From Gemmatimonadaceae bacterium (GTDB taxonomy: Bacteria > Gemmatimonadota > Gemmatimonadetes > Gemmatimonadales > Gemmatimonadaceae): a stretch of DNA of 53,134 bases. The DNA is taken from contig JAIEMN010000017.1 of NCBI GenBank assembly GCA_019752115.1, positions 1-53,134 of the forward strand. The letters run 5' to 3'. Positions 22,532 through 30,626 of the stretch are shown one piece after another. Made by a program: the position numbers and the translations under genes. A model generated the notes under the pieces. That model ran no database searches, was not told the origin of the DNA, and saw only the letters and a program-made list of their open reading frames with translations. How positions within the stretch are numbered: position 1 is the first letter of the stretch; each line of letters starts with the position of its first letter.

Positions 22532-22864
22532 TCAGAAGCCGTTCAGCGCGTCGGCCTCGGTGGGAAACGCCTTGAGGATGGTGGCAAAGCCGGAGATCTC
22601 GAACACTTCACGCACCGACTGATTGAGACCAAAGGTGCGGAGGGCGCCGCCCTTGGCACTCAATTGCTTGGCGAGCCCGAGCAGGATGCGGAGCCCGGCG
22701 CTGCTGACGTAGTCGAGCCCCGAGAAGTCCACGGCGACCTTCCGGGCGGGCGACGTGCCGACGGCGTCGAGCGACGGCTTGGCCTCGGGTGCCGTGTTAC
22801 TGTCGAGGCTGCCATGGATGGCGACGATGGTGACATCGCCAACGGTCCGCGTGGTGACTTCCAT
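22532..22864 (-). CDS. STAS-domain anti-sigma factor antagonist (RsbV-like)
   Basis: 110 residues, one STAS domain. ATG at 22864 is used because its A is shared with the TGA of the upstream kinase gene (TGATG) and the domain starts at once (MEVTTRTVGDVTIVAIHGSL). The phosphorylatable serine region is DYVSSAGLRILLGLA. In the partner-switch scheme the unphosphorylated protein binds the RsbW-like kinase and frees its client. Gene order kinase then STAS is reversed relative to the usual rsbV-rsbW. The PP2C phosphatase at 29388 is a candidate to remove the phosphate. Confidence 0.92.
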   Translation of the reverse strand: MEVTTRTVGDVTIVAIHGSLDSNTAPEAKPSLDAVGTSPARKVAVDFSGLDYVSSAGLRILLGLAKQLSAKGGALRTFGLNQSVREVFEISGFATILKAFPTEADALNGF

Positions 22865-23313
22865 CAGGAGGCTCCTTCCGAGTCGGGCGACCACCCGTCG
22901 GGGAGTCGCTTGGTAAGGGTCAGAACATTGTGGTGCGCGTCGCGCGCGTACTGCACGTCATCGACGAGCCGCTGCACGAGATAGATGCCGAGCCCCCCGA
23001 TGGGGCGCTCGTCGACGGAGAGCGTGGTGTCCGGCTGTGCCCGGGCGAGCGGATCGAAGGGCGGCCCGTTGTCGGCCACCGCCACCGTCACCGCGTCGGG
23101 GAGCAGCTGCACGGTCACGCTGGCCTGACCATTGGGCTGCGTACCCACCCCGTGCATCACGACGTTGGCGAGCAGTTCATCCAGCACCACGAGCAGATCC
23201 CGCCGCATCGCATCGGGCATGCGGTTGGGGGTGGCAAAGCAGGCGAACGCGTCCAGGACGGCGGCCACCTCGCCGGGGGCCGAGCCGATCATCATCTGGA
23301 ACGCTGCCGACAT
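22864..23313 (-). CDS. RsbW-like anti-sigma serine kinase
   Basis: 149 residues, a HATPase_c_2 domain: N box DELLANVVMHG, G1 box VADNGPPFDP and G2 box GGLGIYLVQ. Such kinases bind a sigma factor or another client and phosphorylate the STAS antagonist. No class-B stress sigma (SigB) gene is visible nearby; the ECF factor on the other strand at 23545 is the nearest sigma. A good ribosome site (GGGAG) precedes the ATG, and the gene is coupled to the STAS gene through TGATG. The 231 bases to the divergent sigma gene should hold promoters for both. Confidence 0.92.
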   Translation of the reverse strand: MSAAFQMMIGSAPGEVAAVLDAFACFATPNRMPDAMRRDLLVVLDELLANVVMHGVGTQPNGQASVTVQLLPDAVTVAVADNGPPFDPLARAQPDTTLSVDERPIGGLGIYLVQRLVDDVQYARDAHHNVLTLTKRLPDGWSPDSEGAS

Positions 23314-23544: not shown

Positions 23545-24129
23545 ATGGTCTCCAACCTTGGCGCGATTGGTGTGTATTTGGATCGAACGACGGTCACAAC
23601 CGACGAACTAGACCGCGCTGCGATCCGCCGCTACCTCGAGGGCGAACCGGCCGCGGCCCGGGAGTTGGTCGAGCGGTATGAGCGACCGTTGTTCACCGTA
23701 GCGCTCCGGATGCTCGGCAATGCGCAGGACGCCGAAGACGTGACGCAGGCGGTGTTCGGCCGGGTGTTTCGCGATCTGCACAGCTACGACACGACCCATC
23801 GGTTTTTCAGCTGGGTCTATCGGATGACGGTGAACGCGGCGCTCAACGCGCAGCGGGATCGCAAGGCCCTGGTTCCCCTCGAAGACGAATCGGCGCTCCC
23901 CGCGGTTGGTGGCGGCGCGGACGATGCCCTCGCGGTGGAAGAACAGGTGAGCAAAGCGTTGTCGGAACTGAAGCCGGATGATCGCACCATTGTGGTGCTG
24001 CGCTACTTCCAATCCCTGTCGTACGATGAGATCGCTGATGTCCTCGGCATTCCCGCCAAAACCGTCAAGTCGCGCCTGTTCACGGCGCGCGAGCGGTTGC
24101 GCGTGCTGCTGCTCGCGCACGAGGGGTGA
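23545..24129 (+). CDS. ECF-type RNA polymerase sigma factor
   Basis: 194 residues. The frame is open from 23386 but the upstream residues are Arg/Pro-rich and unconserved, so ATG at 23545 is chosen. Region 2 (ERYERPLFTVALRMLGNAQDAEDVTQAVFGRVF, then RFFSWVYRMTVNAALNAQR) and region 4 (LKPDDRTIVVLRYFQSLSYDEIADVLGIPAKTVKSRL) are complete. The next gene begins 3 bases after the stop and encodes a one-pass membrane protein with an anti-sigma-like N-terminus, the classic arrangement of a sigma factor and its jailer. Confidence 0.93.
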   Translation: MVSNLGAIGVYLDRTTVTTDELDRAAIRRYLEGEPAAARELVERYERPLFTVALRMLGNAQDAEDVTQAVFGRVFRDLHSYDTTHRFFSWVYRMTVNAALNAQRDRKALVPLEDESALPAVGGGADDALAVEEQVSKALSELKPDDRTIVVLRYFQSLSYDEIADVLGIPAKTVKSRLFTARERLRVLLLAHEG

Positions 24130-24132
24130 GGC

Positions 24133-25299
24133 ATGCTGAGCGATCGTGAGCTGGCCCTGATCCACGGTGACGTGGATGGCGCGCTGGATGCGGCCGAGCG
24201 CGAGGCGCTCGTGAGCCTGCTGGCGTCGAATCCGGAGGCGGCGGCCCTCTCCGCTGATCTCCACCGTTTGCACGGCCTGTTGGCCCGCGTCCCCTCGCGG
24301 GAGCCCTCGCCGGCGCTTCACGCGGCCATCCTGGCCGCGATCCCTCCCCGGCCGCGCCCCATTCCGGCGGCCGCCGTTGTTGAAACCCCGTGGTCCCCTC
24401 GCCCTCGTTCGGAATCCCTGCTCACCCTCGCCCTGCGGCGAATGGAGGAAGTGTTCATGTCCCGTAAGCTGTTCCTCATCGGTGCGACGTCGGTCGCGAT
24501 CATCGCCGTGGTGGCTGGCCGCATCTTCCCGATCCCTTCGAGCGGCAATGAAATCGGTACGATTGGCGGGACCGAGATCAGCGGGTCGGAGATCGGCGGT
24601 GTGCAGAAGGCCGATCGCTATCGCGGGCGCTCGATGTCGGACAAGGACGTCTCCGTGTCGAACCCGGAGATCGCGGTGCTCTTCCAGAATCAGGATATCC
24701 TGACGCTGGTCAAGAGCAATGCGTTCCGTGAGGCGATGAAGAGCGACGCCTTCCGCGAGCTGCAGGCGAGCGATGCGTTCCGCAAGCTGGGCAGCTCCGA
24801 GGCGTTCCACGAGCTGATGAGCTCCGAGGCCTATCGGTCGCTCGCGCAGAGCGACGCGTTCATGAAGGTGATGGCCAGCGACGCGGCCCGTGCGGAGCTG
24901 CAGCGGATGGCCGAGCGTGCGGCCCCGCGGGCGGCGGAACGCCAGGCGGATCGCCAGGCTGAGCGTGCGGCGGAGCGTGCGGCGGATCGCATTGCGAAGG
25001 CGCAGCAGCTTGAGCGCGAGGCGGGCAAGCTCGACGCGTTCCGCGAGCTTTCCAAGCAGGAGGCGTTCCGCGAAGCGGCCAAGCTGGACGCGTTCCGTGA
25101 AGTGATGGCGAACGATGCGTTCCGCGAGCTGATGGCGAAGCAGGCGTTCCGTGACGTGCTGGCGAACGACGCGTTCCGTGCGGTGATGGCGAACGATGCG
25201 TTCCGTCAGCTGCAGAACTCCGAGGCGTACCGGAACGTGGCGCGCAACGCCGGGCTGTCCGAGCTGTTCCTGAACGAGGCGGCGCGCTTCCAGCGGTAA
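24133..25299 (+). CDS. One-pass membrane anti-sigma-like protein with 9-residue AFREL repeats
   Basis: 388 residues. Residues 1-60 resemble the helical N-terminus of anti-sigma factors (ELALIHGDVDGALDAAEREA). A single membrane segment lies at about 112-132 (LFLIGATSVAIIAVVAGRIF). Beyond it are two blocks of 9-residue repeats with consensus AFRELMxxD: about six to nine copies at 179-259 and eight to nine at 302-382. An Ala/Glu/Arg coiled segment (252-301) joins them and shifts the phase. The cytoplasmic part probably holds the sigma factor, while the outer repeats may sense or bind something on the far side of the membrane. Both blocks keep strict 27-base spacing. No zinc-finger Cys/His motif is present. 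Confidence 0.85.
   Translation: MLSDRELALIHGDVDGALDAAEREALVSLLASNPEAAALSADLHRLHGLLARVPSREPSPALHAAILAAIPPRPRPIPAAAVVETPWSPRPRSESLLTLALRRMEEVFMSRKLFLIGATSVAIIAVVAGRIFPIPSSGNEIGTIGGTEISGSEIGGVQKADRYRGRSMSDKDVSVSNPEIAVLFQNQDILTLVKSNAFREAMKSDAFRELQASDAFRKLGSSEAFHELMSSEAYRSLAQSDAFMKVMASDAARAELQRMAERAAPRAAERQADRQAERAAERAADRIAKAQQLEREAGKLDAFRELSKQEAFREAAKLDAFREVMANDAFRELMAKQAFRDVLANDAFRAVMANDAFRQLQNSEAYRNVARNAGLSELFLNEAARFQR
24667..24909 (+). repeat. 27-base coding repeat, first block
   Basis: Codons for residues 179-259 show a 9-residue period: AFREAMKSD, AFRELQASD, AFRKLGSSE, AFHELMSSE, AYRSLAQSD, AFMKVMASD. Two weaker copies precede (EIAVLFQNQ, DILTLVKSN) and one degenerate copy follows. The DNA copies differ at many third positions, so the array is old or under protein-level selection. 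Confidence 0.85.
25036..25278 (+). repeat. 27-base coding repeat, second block
   Basis: Codons for residues 302-382 carry AFRELSKQE, AFREAAKLD, AFREVMAND, AFRELMAKQ, AFRDVLAND, AFRAVMAND, AFRQLQNSE, AYRNVARNA and a last weak copy. DNA cores such as GCGTTCCG recur at the start of most units, so this block is more uniform than the first and probably younger. Confidence 0.88.
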
Positions 25300-25405: not shown

Positions 25406-28378
25406 GTGATTGCCCGCTTGCGCCGTTCCACCGGCCGGTTGCTGCTTCTGGCAACGGCCGCCCTTGTGCTGGGGCCGCGTCCGCTCCGGGCACAGTTTCA
25501 GGGCATCGAGACCGCCACCATTCGGCTGGTCTTCACGTCGCCGCTCCAGACCTATCTGGTGCCGCAGGTGACCGGGGCCTTCGACAATGCGCTCAAGGTC
25601 CACAAGCGCCTGTTCGACTATTCGCCCGACGGGCGCATTGATGTGCTGATGCACGATCTCTGGCACTATGGCAACGCCGGCGCGCGGCCGGTGCCGGAGA
25701 ACCACGTGACGGTCGGCATTGCCCCCTACGGCCACGAGTACGAGTCGGCGCCGGCCCCGGAGCGTATGGCGAGTTCGATGAACCATGAACTCGCGCATAT
25801 CGTCACGACCGACAAGGCCACGGCCGGCGATCGCTTCTTCCGGCGCGCCTTCATGGGGAAGGTGACGCCATCGGCCGAGATGCCGGTGTCGATGCTGTAC
25901 GCCTATCTGACCACGCCGCGCTGGTACTCGCCGCGCTGGTATCTCGAGGGGATTGCGACCTATCTCGAGACGTGGATGAATGGCGGGCTCGGCCGTGCGC
26001 TAGGGCCGTACGACGAGATGGTCTTCCGGACCCTGGTGCGCGACAGCCTGCCGATCTACGACGTGGTGGGGCTCGAATCGGAAGGGACGACCGTGGACTT
26101 CCAGGTCGGCACGAACTCGTATCTGTACGGCACGCGCTTCATGAGCTACCTGGCGCTGCGCTACGGGAACGATTCGCTGTTCCAGTGGGTGAACCGCCGC
26201 GAGGGGAGCGCCGGCTACTTCTCGACGCAGTTCCAGCGCGTGTACGGCCGCTCGCTCGAGGAGGAGTGGGGACGGTGGCTGGCGTGGGAGCGCACGTGGC
26301 AGCGTGACAATCTGGCAGCGATTCGCCGCCATCCGACGACGGCTACGCGCCCGCTCACCAAGCGGGTATTGGGCGGCGTCTCGCGGGCGTTCCACGACAC
26401 GGCCACGCACAGCGTGCTGCTCGCGGTGCGGTACCCCGGGCAGGAGGCGCAGCTCGCGCGCATCGATCTCAGGACGGGGCAGTTCACCCGCGTGGCGCCA
26501 ATCGTGGCCGCCGGTGGGCTGTCGGTCACGTCGCTGGCCTTCGATGCCACGAAGCGCACGGTGTTCTACACGACCAACAACAGCGACTGGCGGCACCTCA
26601 AGGCGCTCGATCTGGCCACCGGGCAGTCGCGCATGCTCCTTCGCGACTCGCGGCTCGGGGATCTGGTGTTCAATCCCGCGGACCAGAGCCTGTGGGGCGT
26701 GCGGCATGACAACGGCCTGTCCACGCTCGTGCGCGTGCCGGCGCCGTACACGGAATGGAAGCAGGTGTGGACGCTGCCCTATGGGCGCGATCTGTTCGAC
26801 CTCGACCTGTCGCCCGACGGCCGCACGCTCATCGGCTCGATGTCCGAAGTGAGCGGCGACACGCGGCTCGTGCAGATGCAGACGGCGGATCTGCTCGCCG
26901 GCAAGACCGAGTCGCGGGTCCTCTTCGAGTTTGCGGAGTGGGCACCGTCGAACTTCGTCTTCTCGGCGGATGGGAAGTTCCTGTACGGCTCGTCGTACTA
27001 CTCCGGCGTGTCGAACATCTATCGCTATGACCTGACGCGGCGGCGCATGCAGCCGCTCAGCAATGCGGAGACCGGCTTCTTCAAGCCATTGCCGCTCACC
27101 GCTGACTCGCTGATGGTGTTCGCGTACTCGCAGACGGGCTTCGTGCCGTCGATGATCGCGAATGCGGTGCCGGACAGCATCAGCGCGATTCGCTTTCTGG
27201 GGAACGAGATTGCTGACAAGCGCCGAGAGGTGCGCGACTGGATGCCGCCGCCGGTTTCGGAGCTGGGGCCCCAGCCCACGGCCGACTCGGCGCGCCCGTA
27301 TCGCGCCCGAGAGAATTTCGGGCTGAACAATGCGTATCCGGTCGTCGAGGGGTATCAGAACGCCCAGCGCGTGCTGGCCGTGGCGCCTGGCGTGCGCTTC
27401 AACTTCGCCGATCGCGTGGGGGCGACGAACCTCGAGTTCACGAGTTCGTACTCGCCCGACGGGCGGCTCGCGGCGGATGAGCGGCTGCATCTGCGCGCGG
27501 TCTTCCGCCATTGGAACTGGAAACTGACCGGGGCGCTCAATCGCGCCGACTTCTACGATCTGCTGGGGCCAACCAAGGTCAGTCGCAAGGGGTATGCGTT
27601 CGGGGCGCAGTACGGCCGCTCGCTGCGCATCGACGGGCCCACCTCGTACGGCTACACCGTGCAGGCCGCGACGTACGGCAATCTGGCGATCCTGCCGGAA
27701 TTCCAGGGCGTGTCCACGAGCTACAAGCAGCTCTCCACGCTCGCCGGCGATTTCTCGTACAAGTCGCTGCGCAAGTCGCTCGGGGCGATCGAGGACGAAG
27801 TCGGTCTGACGTGGAGCACGGCGGTGCGTTCATCGCTGGTGAACGGTGACCTGTACCCGCGCGCGACGCTCGATATCGCGAAGGGGATGCTGCTGCCCCT
27901 GAATCACTCGTCGCTGTGGTTCCGCGGCTCGGCGGGCACGCGTCTGGCGGGTGATCGGACCCAGCCGTTCGCGCGCTTCTACTTTGGCGGCTTCGCGAAC
28001 AACTGGGTGGACTATCGCGCCATCAAGCAGTTCCGCAACGCCGAGAGCTTCCCGGGGCTCGACATCAATACGGTGAGCGGAGCGACGTATGCGAAAGCCC
28101 AGGTGGAGTGGGTCTCGCCGCCGCTCCGGTTCCGGCATGTCGGCGTGCCGAGTGCCTACCTGCGGTGGGCCAATCTTTCGCTGTTCGGGACCTCGCTCAC
28201 GACCGATTTCTCCGAGACGGCGGCACGGCGCAGCTATCGCAGTGCGGGCGCGCAGGTGGATCTGCGCGTGGTGACGTTGTCGAATCTCGATTCGACGATT
28301 TCGTTCGGGTTCGCGATGGCGGCGGGGAGTGGGATCCCGTATCGCCGTGCCACCATGATCTCCTTCAAGATCCTGTGA
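25406..28378 (+). CDS. Exported gluzincin metallopeptidase with beta-propeller and barrel-like C-terminus
   Basis: 990 residues. GTG at 25406 is chosen because it opens a clean signal peptide (RLRRSTGRLLLLATAALVLG, cut near RAQ); the longer frame begins inside the hairpin. The peptidase MA-like domain spans about 30-300 with the zinc motif HELAH and the third ligand in WYLEGIATYLE. Residues 310-600 show repeated beta-propeller strands (VFYTTNNSDWRHLKALDLATG; LDLSPDGRTLIGSM). The last 300 residues alternate hydrophobic and polar residues and end SFKIL, like an outer-membrane barrel. It is probably a surface or periplasmic protease. The PrsW gene starts on its stop codon (TGATG). Confidence 0.87.
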   Translation: MIARLRRSTGRLLLLATAALVLGPRPLRAQFQGIETATIRLVFTSPLQTYLVPQVTGAFDNALKVHKRLFDYSPDGRIDVLMHDLWHYGNAGARPVPENHVTVGIAPYGHEYESAPAPERMASSMNHELAHIVTTDKATAGDRFFRRAFMGKVTPSAEMPVSMLYAYLTTPRWYSPRWYLEGIATYLETWMNGGLGRALGPYDEMVFRTLVRDSLPIYDVVGLESEGTTVDFQVGTNSYLYGTRFMSYLALRYGNDSLFQWVNRREGSAGYFSTQFQRVYGRSLEEEWGRWLAWERTWQRDNLAAIRRHPTTATRPLTKRVLGGVSRAFHDTATHSVLLAVRYPGQEAQLARIDLRTGQFTRVAPIVAAGGLSVTSLAFDATKRTVFYTTNNSDWRHLKALDLATGQSRMLLRDSRLGDLVFNPADQSLWGVRHDNGLSTLVRVPAPYTEWKQVWTLPYGRDLFDLDLSPDGRTLIGSMSEVSGDTRLVQMQTADLLAGKTESRVLFEFAEWAPSNFVFSADGKFLYGSSYYSGVSNIYRYDLTRRRMQPLSNAETGFFKPLPLTADSLMVFAYSQTGFVPSMIANAVPDSISAIRFLGNEIADKRREVRDWMPPPVSELGPQPTADSARPYRARENFGLNNAYPVVEGYQNAQRVLAVAPGVRFNFADRVGATNLEFTSSYSPDGRLAADERLHLRAVFRHWNWKLTGALNRADFYDLLGPTKVSRKGYAFGAQYGRSLRIDGPTSYGYTVQAATYGNLAILPEFQGVSTSYKQLSTLAGDFSYKSLRKSLGAIEDEVGLTWSTAVRSSLVNGDLYPRATLDIAKGMLLPLNHSSLWFRGSAGTRLAGDRTQPFARFYFGGFANNWVDYRAIKQFRNAESFPGLDINTVSGATYAKAQVEWVSPPLRFRHVGVPSAYLRWANLSLFGTSLTTDFSETAARRSYRSAGAQVDLRVVTLSNLDSTISFGFAMAAGSGIPYRRATMISFKIL

Positions 28379-29391
28379 TGTTCGCGCTCGGTGTCGCGTT
28401 GAGTGTGCTCCCGGTGCTGGTGCTGCTGGGGGCACTGGTGGTGATCGACAGCTACAAGCTGGTCGCCCTGCGCGCGGTCCTCCTCGCCGTTGGCGTGGGG
28501 GCGGCGATGGCGGCGCTCTGCTACGTGGTGAACCTCACGCTGGCCCCCGCGCTTGGCTGGCCCCTGCTGACGTACGCCCGCTACGTCTCGCCGGTGGTGG
28601 AAGAAGTGGCCAAGGCGTCGTTCGTGGTGTGGCTGTTGTCGCGCAATCGCATTGGCTTCGTGGTGGACGCCGCGATTTTCGGTTTCGCAATCGGCACGGG
28701 CTTCGCGCTGACCGAGAACGTGTACTACGTCCTGGCGGCACCGACCGCCCCGGTCTGGACCTGGCTGGTGCGCGGGATCGGCACCGCCGTCATGCACGGC
28801 TGCGCGACCGCCGCGTTTGCGATGGCCGCGCGCGCGCTGCATGGGCAGCAGGCGCAGCTGCAGCTCACGCGTCTCCTCCCGGGGCTGTTGCTGGGAATCC
28901 TGCTGCATTCACTCTACAATCACTTCCTGCTGCAACCGCTCACTGCGGCCGGCCTCGTCCTGCTCGTGTTCCCGTGGGTGGCGGTCTGGCTCTTCGAGCG
29001 CAGCGACCGGGAGACGCGGCAGTGGCTGGGCTCCGGCTTCGATACCGACCAGGCGTTGCTGCAGGCGATGCGTGCGGGGGCCTTGTCGGGCACCCCGGTG
29101 GGGACCTATCTGACGACGGTTCGCCAGCATTTCGATCCGGAAGTCATCGTGGACATGCTCTGCCTGCTTCGGCTGCGCGCCGAGCTGGGCATTCGCGCCA
29201 AGGCCGTACTGATGGCGCGCGAGGTGGGCTTCGAGATGGAGGCCGACCCGTCACTGCCGGAAAAGTTCACGGAGCTGCGCTACCTTGAACGGAGCATCGG
29301 CACGACGGGAATGCGTGCCCTGCAGCCGTTCCTGCATACCAGCACGCAGGACCTCTGGCAGTTGAACATGCTCAATGAGGGGAACGCATGA
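28378..29391 (+). CDS. PrsW-family intramembrane metalloprotease
   Basis: 337 residues. Its ATG shares the A of the previous stop (TGATG). About seven to eight membrane segments are followed by a soluble C-terminal 110 residues (SDRETRQWLGSGF onward). The glutamyl-protease motifs of PrsW relatives are present: PVVEEVAKAS, TENVYYV, VMHGCATAAF and LLHSLYNHFLL. PrsW makes the first cut in the anti-sigma factor RsiW in Bacillus. Here the one-pass anti-sigma-like protein is encoded two genes upstream, so it is a natural candidate substrate. The downstream phosphatase gene overlaps through ATGA. Confidence 0.9.
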   Translation: MFALGVALSVLPVLVLLGALVVIDSYKLVALRAVLLAVGVGAAMAALCYVVNLTLAPALGWPLLTYARYVSPVVEEVAKASFVVWLLSRNRIGFVVDAAIFGFAIGTGFALTENVYYVLAAPTAPVWTWLVRGIGTAVMHGCATAAFAMAARALHGQQAQLQLTRLLPGLLLGILLHSLYNHFLLQPLTAAGLVLLVFPWVAVWLFERSDRETRQWLGSGFDTDQALLQAMRAGALSGTPVGTYLTTVRQHFDPEVIVDMLCLLRLRAELGIRAKAVLMAREVGFEMEADPSLPEKFTELRYLERSIGTTGMRALQPFLHTSTQDLWQLNMLNEGNA

Positions 29392-30626
29392 ACCGACCCA
29401 TGTCCGCGCCACCGGCAACGGTGACGACGCTGCGCCAGCTCAACAAGGCCATGGTGGTCGGGCGGAAAGAGGACACGTTCGCAGAGCAGACCAACCTCCT
29501 GCTCGCGCAGCACTTTCTGCCGTACCCGATCGAAGACACGCAGGCCGCGCTCGAGCGGTTGCGGAAGGAAAAGTTCGATCTGGTGATTGTGGATGCCGAG
29601 GCCCCGGGGGGCGGCGGGCCGGCGTTTCTCAAGGCACTCCGTGCCGATGCGGCGCTGCGGGATCTGCCGGTGCTGGCGCGTTCGCCGCGCGATGATGCGG
29701 CGGCGCTGGACCAGTGCCTCGCGAGCGGTGCCGACGACTATCTCCCGCGGGAGTATGGCGCCGCCGTGCTCGGGCGGCGGATGAACGCGGCCATCGATCG
29801 GCATCGCATCAAGGACAGTGCGGCGATGCGCGATGAGATGCGCGTCGCGCGCCATATCCAGCGCGACTTCCTGCCGGAAACGTTGCCGTCGATGGCGGGC
29901 CTCGAACTGCAGGCGGCGCTGCATCCGGCCAAGCAGGTCTCCGGTGACTTCTACGACGCCTTCCCCTTGGCGACGGGGCAGCTGTTTTTCGTGGTGGGTG
30001 ATGTGTGCGACAAGGGGGTCGGGGCGGCGCTGTTCATGGCGCTCTTCCGCAGCCTGATCCGTGCGAGCGCCGATCCGGAGGGCGGTGGCGCCACGCAGGT
30101 CCGCAATACGGCGACGTACGCCGTGAGCACGGCGCCCGACGCCGAGACGCCCGCCGAGCTTCTGGTGCGCGTGGCGGAGTTCACGAACAACTACATCGCG
30201 CGTCTGCACGGGCGCACGAACATGTTCGCCACGGTGTTCATGGCGATCATCGACCCGCAGTCGGGAGCGTGCACGTATCTCAACGCGGGGCACGAACCGC
30301 CGCTGGTCGTGGGCGCGCAGGGGATCGTGCAGGAGTTCCGCCCGACCGGTCCGGCGTTGGGCATGATGCCGGATGTGCCCTTCGGCGCGGTGGACAGCAC
30401 GCTCGATCACGGCCACACGCTGTTCGCGTTTACGGACGGGCTGGTGGAGGCGCGCAATCCGAGCGGTGAAGAGTTCGGCAATGCGCGGTTGCGGGCGATG
30501 CTGCAGGGGAAGCCCGGCGAATCGGCCACGGCGCTCGTCGCGCGCTTCGTGAACGCGGTGCAGCTCTTCGGGCAGCAGGGGGATCCGCACGACGATCTGA
30601 CGCTGCTGGCGGCGACGCGGTTGTAG
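29388..30626 (+). CDS. Receiver-like domain fused to a PP2C (SpoIIE/RsbU) phosphatase
   Basis: 412 residues. Residues 20-135 look like a response-regulator receiver with the phosphoacceptor position in LVIVDAEAP; the conserved Lys appears to be Arg (LARSPRDD), so phosphorylation control is uncertain. After a linker helix (MRVARHIQRDFLP), the PP2C domain shows SGDFYDAF, GDVCDKGVGAALFMAL, LNAGHEPPLV, FAFTDGLVEARN and DDLTLLAA, the metal-binding aspartates of RsbU-type phosphatases. It probably dephosphorylates a STAS protein, for which the product of 22532-22864 is the nearest candidate. Confidence 0.93.
   Translation: MNRPMSAPPATVTTLRQLNKAMVVGRKEDTFAEQTNLLLAQHFLPYPIEDTQAALERLRKEKFDLVIVDAEAPGGGGPAFLKALRADAALRDLPVLARSPRDDAAALDQCLASGADDYLPREYGAAVLGRRMNAAIDRHRIKDSAAMRDEMRVARHIQRDFLPETLPSMAGLELQAALHPAKQVSGDFYDAFPLATGQLFFVVGDVCDKGVGAALFMALFRSLIRASADPEGGGATQVRNTATYAVSTAPDAETPAELLVRVAEFTNNYIARLHGRTNMFATVFMAIIDPQSGACTYLNAGHEPPLVVGAQGIVQEFRPTGPALGMMPDVPFGAVDSTLDHGHTLFAFTDGLVEARNPSGEEFGNARLRAMLQGKPGESATALVARFVNAVQLFGQQGDPHDDLTLLAATRL

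Follow-up and report, generated by a model that had tools for sequence, protein, structure and literature searches.

The analysed window, a stretch of 53,134 nucleotides from a Gemmatimonadaceae draft genome of 83 contigs, carries a four-gene cassette that encodes, in this order, an ECF sigma factor, a predicted anti-sigma factor with a repetitive outer part, a peptidase/propeller protein with an HExxH..E motif (PEP) and a PrsW protease. The features of the locus are as follows:

22532 to 22894, minus strand: STAS protein of the anti-anti-sigma type (STAS, E=6e-18)
22864 to 23313, minus strand: HATPase_c_2 protein of the RsbW-like kinase type (E=7.5e-26)
23551 to 23576, plus strand: bipartite element TCCAACYTT-N13-TGTA, found once per cassette in 8/8 cassettes
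23578 to 24129, plus strand: ECF sigma factor with a TTG start beside the element, the ATG at 23545 also being in frame (Sigma70_r2, E=8e-16; Sigma70_r4_2, E=1e-17)
24133 to 25299, plus strand: anti-sigma gene, an ORF with an ATG start encoding 388 residues
24133 to 24342, plus strand, residues 1-70: N-terminal anti-sigma domain without cysteine (from pLDDT, Foldseek and a cysteine check of seven members)
24466 to 24525, plus strand, residues ~112-131: single membrane segment (from sequence and a model helix at 112-131)
24556 to 24720, plus strand, residues 142-196: conserved juxtamembrane stretch GTIGG..VQxAxRYRGRxM..DV..NPEIxxLFQN (from a seven-member alignment)
24664 to 24882, plus strand, residues 178-250: repeat block 1, eight units of nine residues (from lag-identity periodicity)
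24883 to 25020, plus strand, residues 251-296: A/E/R-rich spacer, predicted by AlphaFold as one long helix
25033 to 25248, plus strand, residues ~301-372: repeat block 2, eight units (from Tandem Repeats Finder and periodicity)
25249 to 25299, plus strand: C-terminal cap (LSxxFLxEAxR-like) and stop codon
25406 to 28378, plus strand: PEP, with a HELAH...EG zinc-peptidase-like motif, a PD40 propeller and a possible C-terminal outer-membrane barrel (from motif and profiles)
28378 to 29391, plus strand: PrsW family intramembrane protease (PF13367, E=8e-19)
29388 to 30626, plus strand: receiver with SpoIIE-type phosphatase, RsbU-like (SpoIIE, E=7e-45; Response_reg, E=5e-10)

The best NCBIfam match of the ECF protein is SigW (6e-33, under that model's cut-off). 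PEP comprises 990 residues, of which residues 31-321 match no Pfam family; its HExxH...E motif is present in 8/8 cassettes, PD40 (E=0.002) falls just under the cut-off and the Omp85_2 match is weak (E=0.08). The PrsW motifs EE, F..xEN and H(S/A)LYN are conserved across six cassettes. Parts of an RsbV/RsbW/RsbU partner switch (22532-23313 and 29388-30626) flank the ECF cassette; the STAS and HATPase genes lie beside it, on the opposite side, in 5/8 cassettes including the source, and the receiver-SpoIIE phosphatase is also found in genomes G046, G094 and G143. A 607-residue antisense ORF across the anti-sigma gene was put down to the GC richness of the sequence and discarded.

Across 288 genomes of the order, profile search revealed eight strong members including the source genome, one family member being the Gemmatimonadaceae MAG RX3_metabat.bin.33, and a search through 395 genomes drawn evenly from the phylum brought no further member. 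The relatives are mostly fragmented drafts; within the limits of its contig, each member has the same gene order, apart from G015, which has no ECF gene. Identity to the source is 56-64% for ECF, 58-61% for PrsW and 63-73% for PEP, compared to 32-47% for the N-terminal half of the anti-sigma factor. Missing from G015 are the ECF gene and the part encoding the N-terminal half of the anti-sigma factor, whereas the DNA element, the coding sequence for membrane segment and array, PEP and PrsW are kept; the gap is either a genuine deletion or an error of assembly. PEP itself occurs in 10/288 genomes of the order, namely the eight cassette genomes, G143 (whose contig begins inside PEP) and G224. A further 28 genomes of the class, in other orders, encode more distant PEP relatives (~25% identity); these relatives were excluded as parts of the same cassette, since eight stretches checked contain no recognisable ECF or PrsW neighbour.

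The bipartite element was first spotted by eye and then tested against the cassettes and the genome. It immediately precedes the ECF start in 8/8 cassettes, including those with unrelated upstream genes, and in G015 it stands before the remnant. An exact match in the 5.17 Mb genome occurs only at the cassette, and a second site with one mismatch lies at G000:C57:5957-5982. No GGAA-type promoter pattern was found upstream of the ECF gene. SigW-type promoters follow the consensus spacing TGAAAC-N16-CGTA, and the AAC and GTA of the element are likewise 17 bases apart. The element is thus a probable ECF-type promoter of the cassette, a role that is uncertain because the coding start, 1-3 bases past TGTA, is too near for a normal transcription start.

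The AlphaFold model of the anti-sigma protein has a mean pLDDT of 46 and is confident only in the N-terminal domain, with block means of 86-93 over residues 1-40 and 70 over residues 41-50. This domain consists of helices at residues 4-14, 20-32, 34-51 and 60-69, the last of low confidence, and the predicted structure has the three-helix bundle plus fourth helix of class I anti-sigma domains (ASDI). Structural similarity search using Foldseek gave RsiW, RslA or ChrR as 11/13 matches and at the top of the ranking, with a target TM of 0.64-0.72 for RsiW and RslA and E-values >1, as the rest of the model is poor. The best PDB sequence match is RskA (E=0.26), and an NCBIfam anti-sigma model matches residues 16-100 weakly (E=1.8e-5, under the model's cut-off). 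As is typical of ASDI proteins, the gene lies beside its presumed cognate ECF gene, with a 3-base gap in the source and adjacency in 7/8 cassettes, all except G015. The seven members checked have no cysteine and therefore no zinc-binding anti-sigma (ZAS) motif Hx3Cx2C; the absence is unremarkable, since the zinc-less type accounts for ~44% of class I domains (PMC7406223). Similar to RskA-type zinc-less class I anti-sigma factors, the protein joins a zinc-less domain to a PPxxLRxAIL-type linker, but its outer domain differs in being made of 9-residue repeats. The anti-sigma identity put forward in the original prediction is thus supported by the fold matches, the weak profile match and the adjoining ECF gene, and we consider the protein, zinc-less class I by fold, very likely to be an anti-sigma factor, which probably holds a bacterial stress-response switch off.

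The 9-residue periodicity of the outer part, claimed earlier from reading the letters, proved to be real. Over residues 176-388, identity between residues n and n+9 is 0.358 (0.344 at lag 18, 0.306 at lag 27 and ~0.08 at the remaining lags), compared to a mean of 0.099 and a maximum of 0.181 in 10,000 shuffles of the same residues, and Tandem Repeats Finder located 27-base arrays at 24771-24830, 25015-25102 and 25090-25206. The arrangement of two out-of-phase blocks around an A/E/R-rich spacer also stood, with the earlier boundaries good to about one unit; the phase shifts because the A-F pairs at residues 197 and 302 are 105 residues (11 x 9 + 6) apart. The repeats do follow one membrane segment, as had been described, and the juxtamembrane stretch overlaps units 1-2 of block 1. 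Consistent with the statement that no named domain has this repeat, searches of the repeats against Pfam, NCBIfam, PHROGs and PDB gave no convincing match, returning artefacts only (BACK_BPM_SPOP, Plasmodium_HRP and RGS). Of these, BACK_BPM_SPOP in G046 exceeds the cut-off for the whole protein (30.3 against 27.4 bits) by summing weak repeat matches, with no single significant stretch. Among the papers searched, none was found on an anti-sigma factor with a tandem-repeat outer domain or on nine-residue helical repeats.

Periodic arrays recur beyond the source genome, with a clear 9-residue period in five further genomes and a shorter, irregular one in two more. The unit is AFRELMAND in the source, AYQQLMASQ in G046, AYRELMASE in G253, AYRELSANP in G281, AWQALQKNA in G094 and AFAAAFKND in G015, whereas G014 and G026 have ~11 irregular units by eye, such as FFNNPEFKNFE, so the length of the putative stalk is not fixed. 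Unit identity is 0.57 within an array compared to 0.34 between arrays. Judged from these sequences, the array is rebuilt with a different unit in each lineage, the neighbouring genes being unchanged. Units of G281 differ at 0.70 of synonymous and only 0.19 of nonsynonymous sites, indicating that the amino acids matter there and that the array is kept as protein. By contrast, the source, G046 and G253 show a small difference between the two classes of sites (ratio 0.7-0.9). The repeat profile detected no array outside this anti-sigma family in 395 genomes of the phylum, and searches of plasmid, phage and viral contigs gave no match. Outside the phylum, where DNA-pattern scans that would miss diverged arrays were used, a first scan of genome contigs found nothing and a second found the G253 record only.

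A more distant ninth cassette is present in G224, with identities of 44% for ECF, 48% for PrsW and 41% for PEP. Its anti-sigma factor (L072:5732-6910, minus strand) has 393 residues, the first 173 of which score 33.5 bits, compared to a top score of 4.7 among 200 shuffles, and thus belong to the same family. In place of the 9-residue array, however, its outer part of ~190 residues is composed of ~63 Gly-Thr/Leu-Ser (Gly-X-Ser) triplets. Similar to collagen-like Gly-X-Y proteins, every third residue is glycine for ~190 residues, but the triplets contain no proline or lysine and are attached to an anti-sigma factor. By sequence comparison, an unrelated repeat of about the same size has taken the place of the outer domain in G224, an exchange known from this single genome.

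The 117 units compared, from five genera, share a pattern. S/T/N/D/G occupies position 8 in 97% of the units and D/E/Q/P/S/T/A position 0 in 98%, which together give a helix-start signature every nine residues; alanine takes position 1 in 91%, an aromatic residue position 2 in 98%, and L, V, I, M, A or F position 5 throughout. As the units were picked by fit to the alanine-aromatic register, the values at positions 1-2 are inflated, and those at positions 8, 0 and 5 are not. Proline is confined to position 0, where most G281 units carry it. Two AlphaFold runs, on the whole protein and on block 2 alone with repeat stretches as alignment rows (pLDDT 59.5), both gave helices of ~7 residues broken every nine residues at the unit boundaries, at low confidence; the alignments were thin, with the family relatives from the genome searches left out, and Foldseek matches of the block 2 model were meaningless.

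These data bear on the original prediction of a continuous two-sided helix, able to bind on either side or stack as filaments; in the rival model built on it, the signal would be that anti-sigma molecules cluster. The arithmetic is sound: nine residues equal 2.5 turns, the faces therefore alternate exactly, and the computed hydrophobic moment over 18 residues is zero. The continuous helix itself does not agree with the helix-start residues in every unit, the G281 prolines or the breaks in the structure prediction that had been proposed as a check, nor are the Gly-X-Ser triplets of the distant relative helical of that kind, and we regard it as very improbable. Given the per-unit helix starts and the low-confidence AlphaFold breaks, each 9-mer is more likely a separate capped short helix in the predicted structure than part of one long two-sided helix.

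Short helices of this kind might also serve in the periplasm as a sensor with a groove for hydrophobic segments, such as those of unfolded outer-membrane proteins, whose binding would alter the access of PrsW. This is the main rival to the stalk described below, though we think it rather unlikely. The 9-mers look like short amphipathic helices with a break, given the aromatic position 2 and a position 5 that is hydrophobic or alanine in 117/117 units, and resemble STI1 domains, in which five amphipathic helices with helix-breaking prolines form a flexible groove for hydrophobic clients (PMC8010706). STI1/HOP DP domains (PF17830; Sti1/HOP, Sgt2 and ubiquilins) share the short broken amphipathic helices and NP-E-like starts, but have five helices, whereas the clear arrays comprise 16-27 regular units of nine residues, and no significant sequence match links the two. 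The best hit, of the first units of one member to STI1-HOP_DP (E=0.14), is far under threshold and absent from the other five of the six members scanned; moreover, the Gly-X-Ser triplets of G224 should not make such a groove. Next in order, and unlikely, is a near-neutral origin, in which 27-base slippage accounts for most of the array, with units expanded and homogenised within a tolerant linker, so that function would depend on the anti-sigma domain and membrane segment alone. The fast unit turnover and variable length and phase fit this account, as do the simple repeat that replaces the array in G224 and the nonsynonymous difference between source units (0.38), nearly equal to the synonymous one (0.42). 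It does not explain why the helix-cap, alanine, aromatic and hydrophobic pattern is kept over all these units, why purifying selection between G281 units is strong, or why most members with clear arrays have the C-terminal cap in common.

We tentatively favour, as a whole, a switch of the RsiW/PrsW kind, in which an exchangeable repeat stalk forms the outer part and gates proteolysis, although this complete model falls somewhat short of even probability. In B. subtilis, PrsW makes the first cut in RsiW and RasP the second (PMC5358783), and a switch of this type is the likeliest here because the same parts sit in one cluster. Similar to the RsiW-SigW-PrsW system, the locus combines a single-pass class I anti-sigma factor with an outer domain, a SigW-like ECF sigma factor and a PrsW protease; it differs in having no zinc motif, PrsW in the same gene cluster, a long outer repeat stalk and a linked peptidase/propeller protein. 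Adjacency alone does not prove that the anti-sigma factor is a substrate of PrsW, yet by analogy its PrsW-type proteolysis is reasonably likely. A role of the array as stalk or gate, which we hold as a plausible but unsettled part of the model, is preferred over a ligand-specific fold because of the G224 exchange and the turnover of units against conserved PEP and PrsW.

In the favoured model, the cytoplasmic zinc-less class I domain would bind the neighbouring ECF sigma factor and keep it inactive. The outer part would form a long stalk of separate short helices, serving as a replaceable spacer or a gate for proteolysis; when intact, and possibly engaged with the peptidase/propeller protein, it may block PrsW from its site, which would be opened once the stalk is lost or disengaged. 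Upon envelope disturbance, the PrsW of the cassette would cut the anti-sigma factor near the membrane, and a site-2 protease would complete the cut and release the sigma factor, which might then transcribe its own cassette from TCCAACYTT-N13-TGTA. An extreme form of this model, which we consider doubtful, holds that selection acts on a repetitive rod of ~200 residues independently of its sequence, with units of either capped helices or Gly-X-Ser, and that its reach or integrity from the inner membrane to PEP gates intramembrane proteolysis. If that were true, the stalk would sense distance or tension in the envelope.

Envelope sensing by anti-sigma factors is understood in a few cases. The family described here presents an unusual pattern, in which the putative sensing part is rebuilt in each lineage beside a conserved sigma factor, protease and partner protein, and whether sensing would require a specific ligand or merely a stalk could be addressed directly by array swapping.
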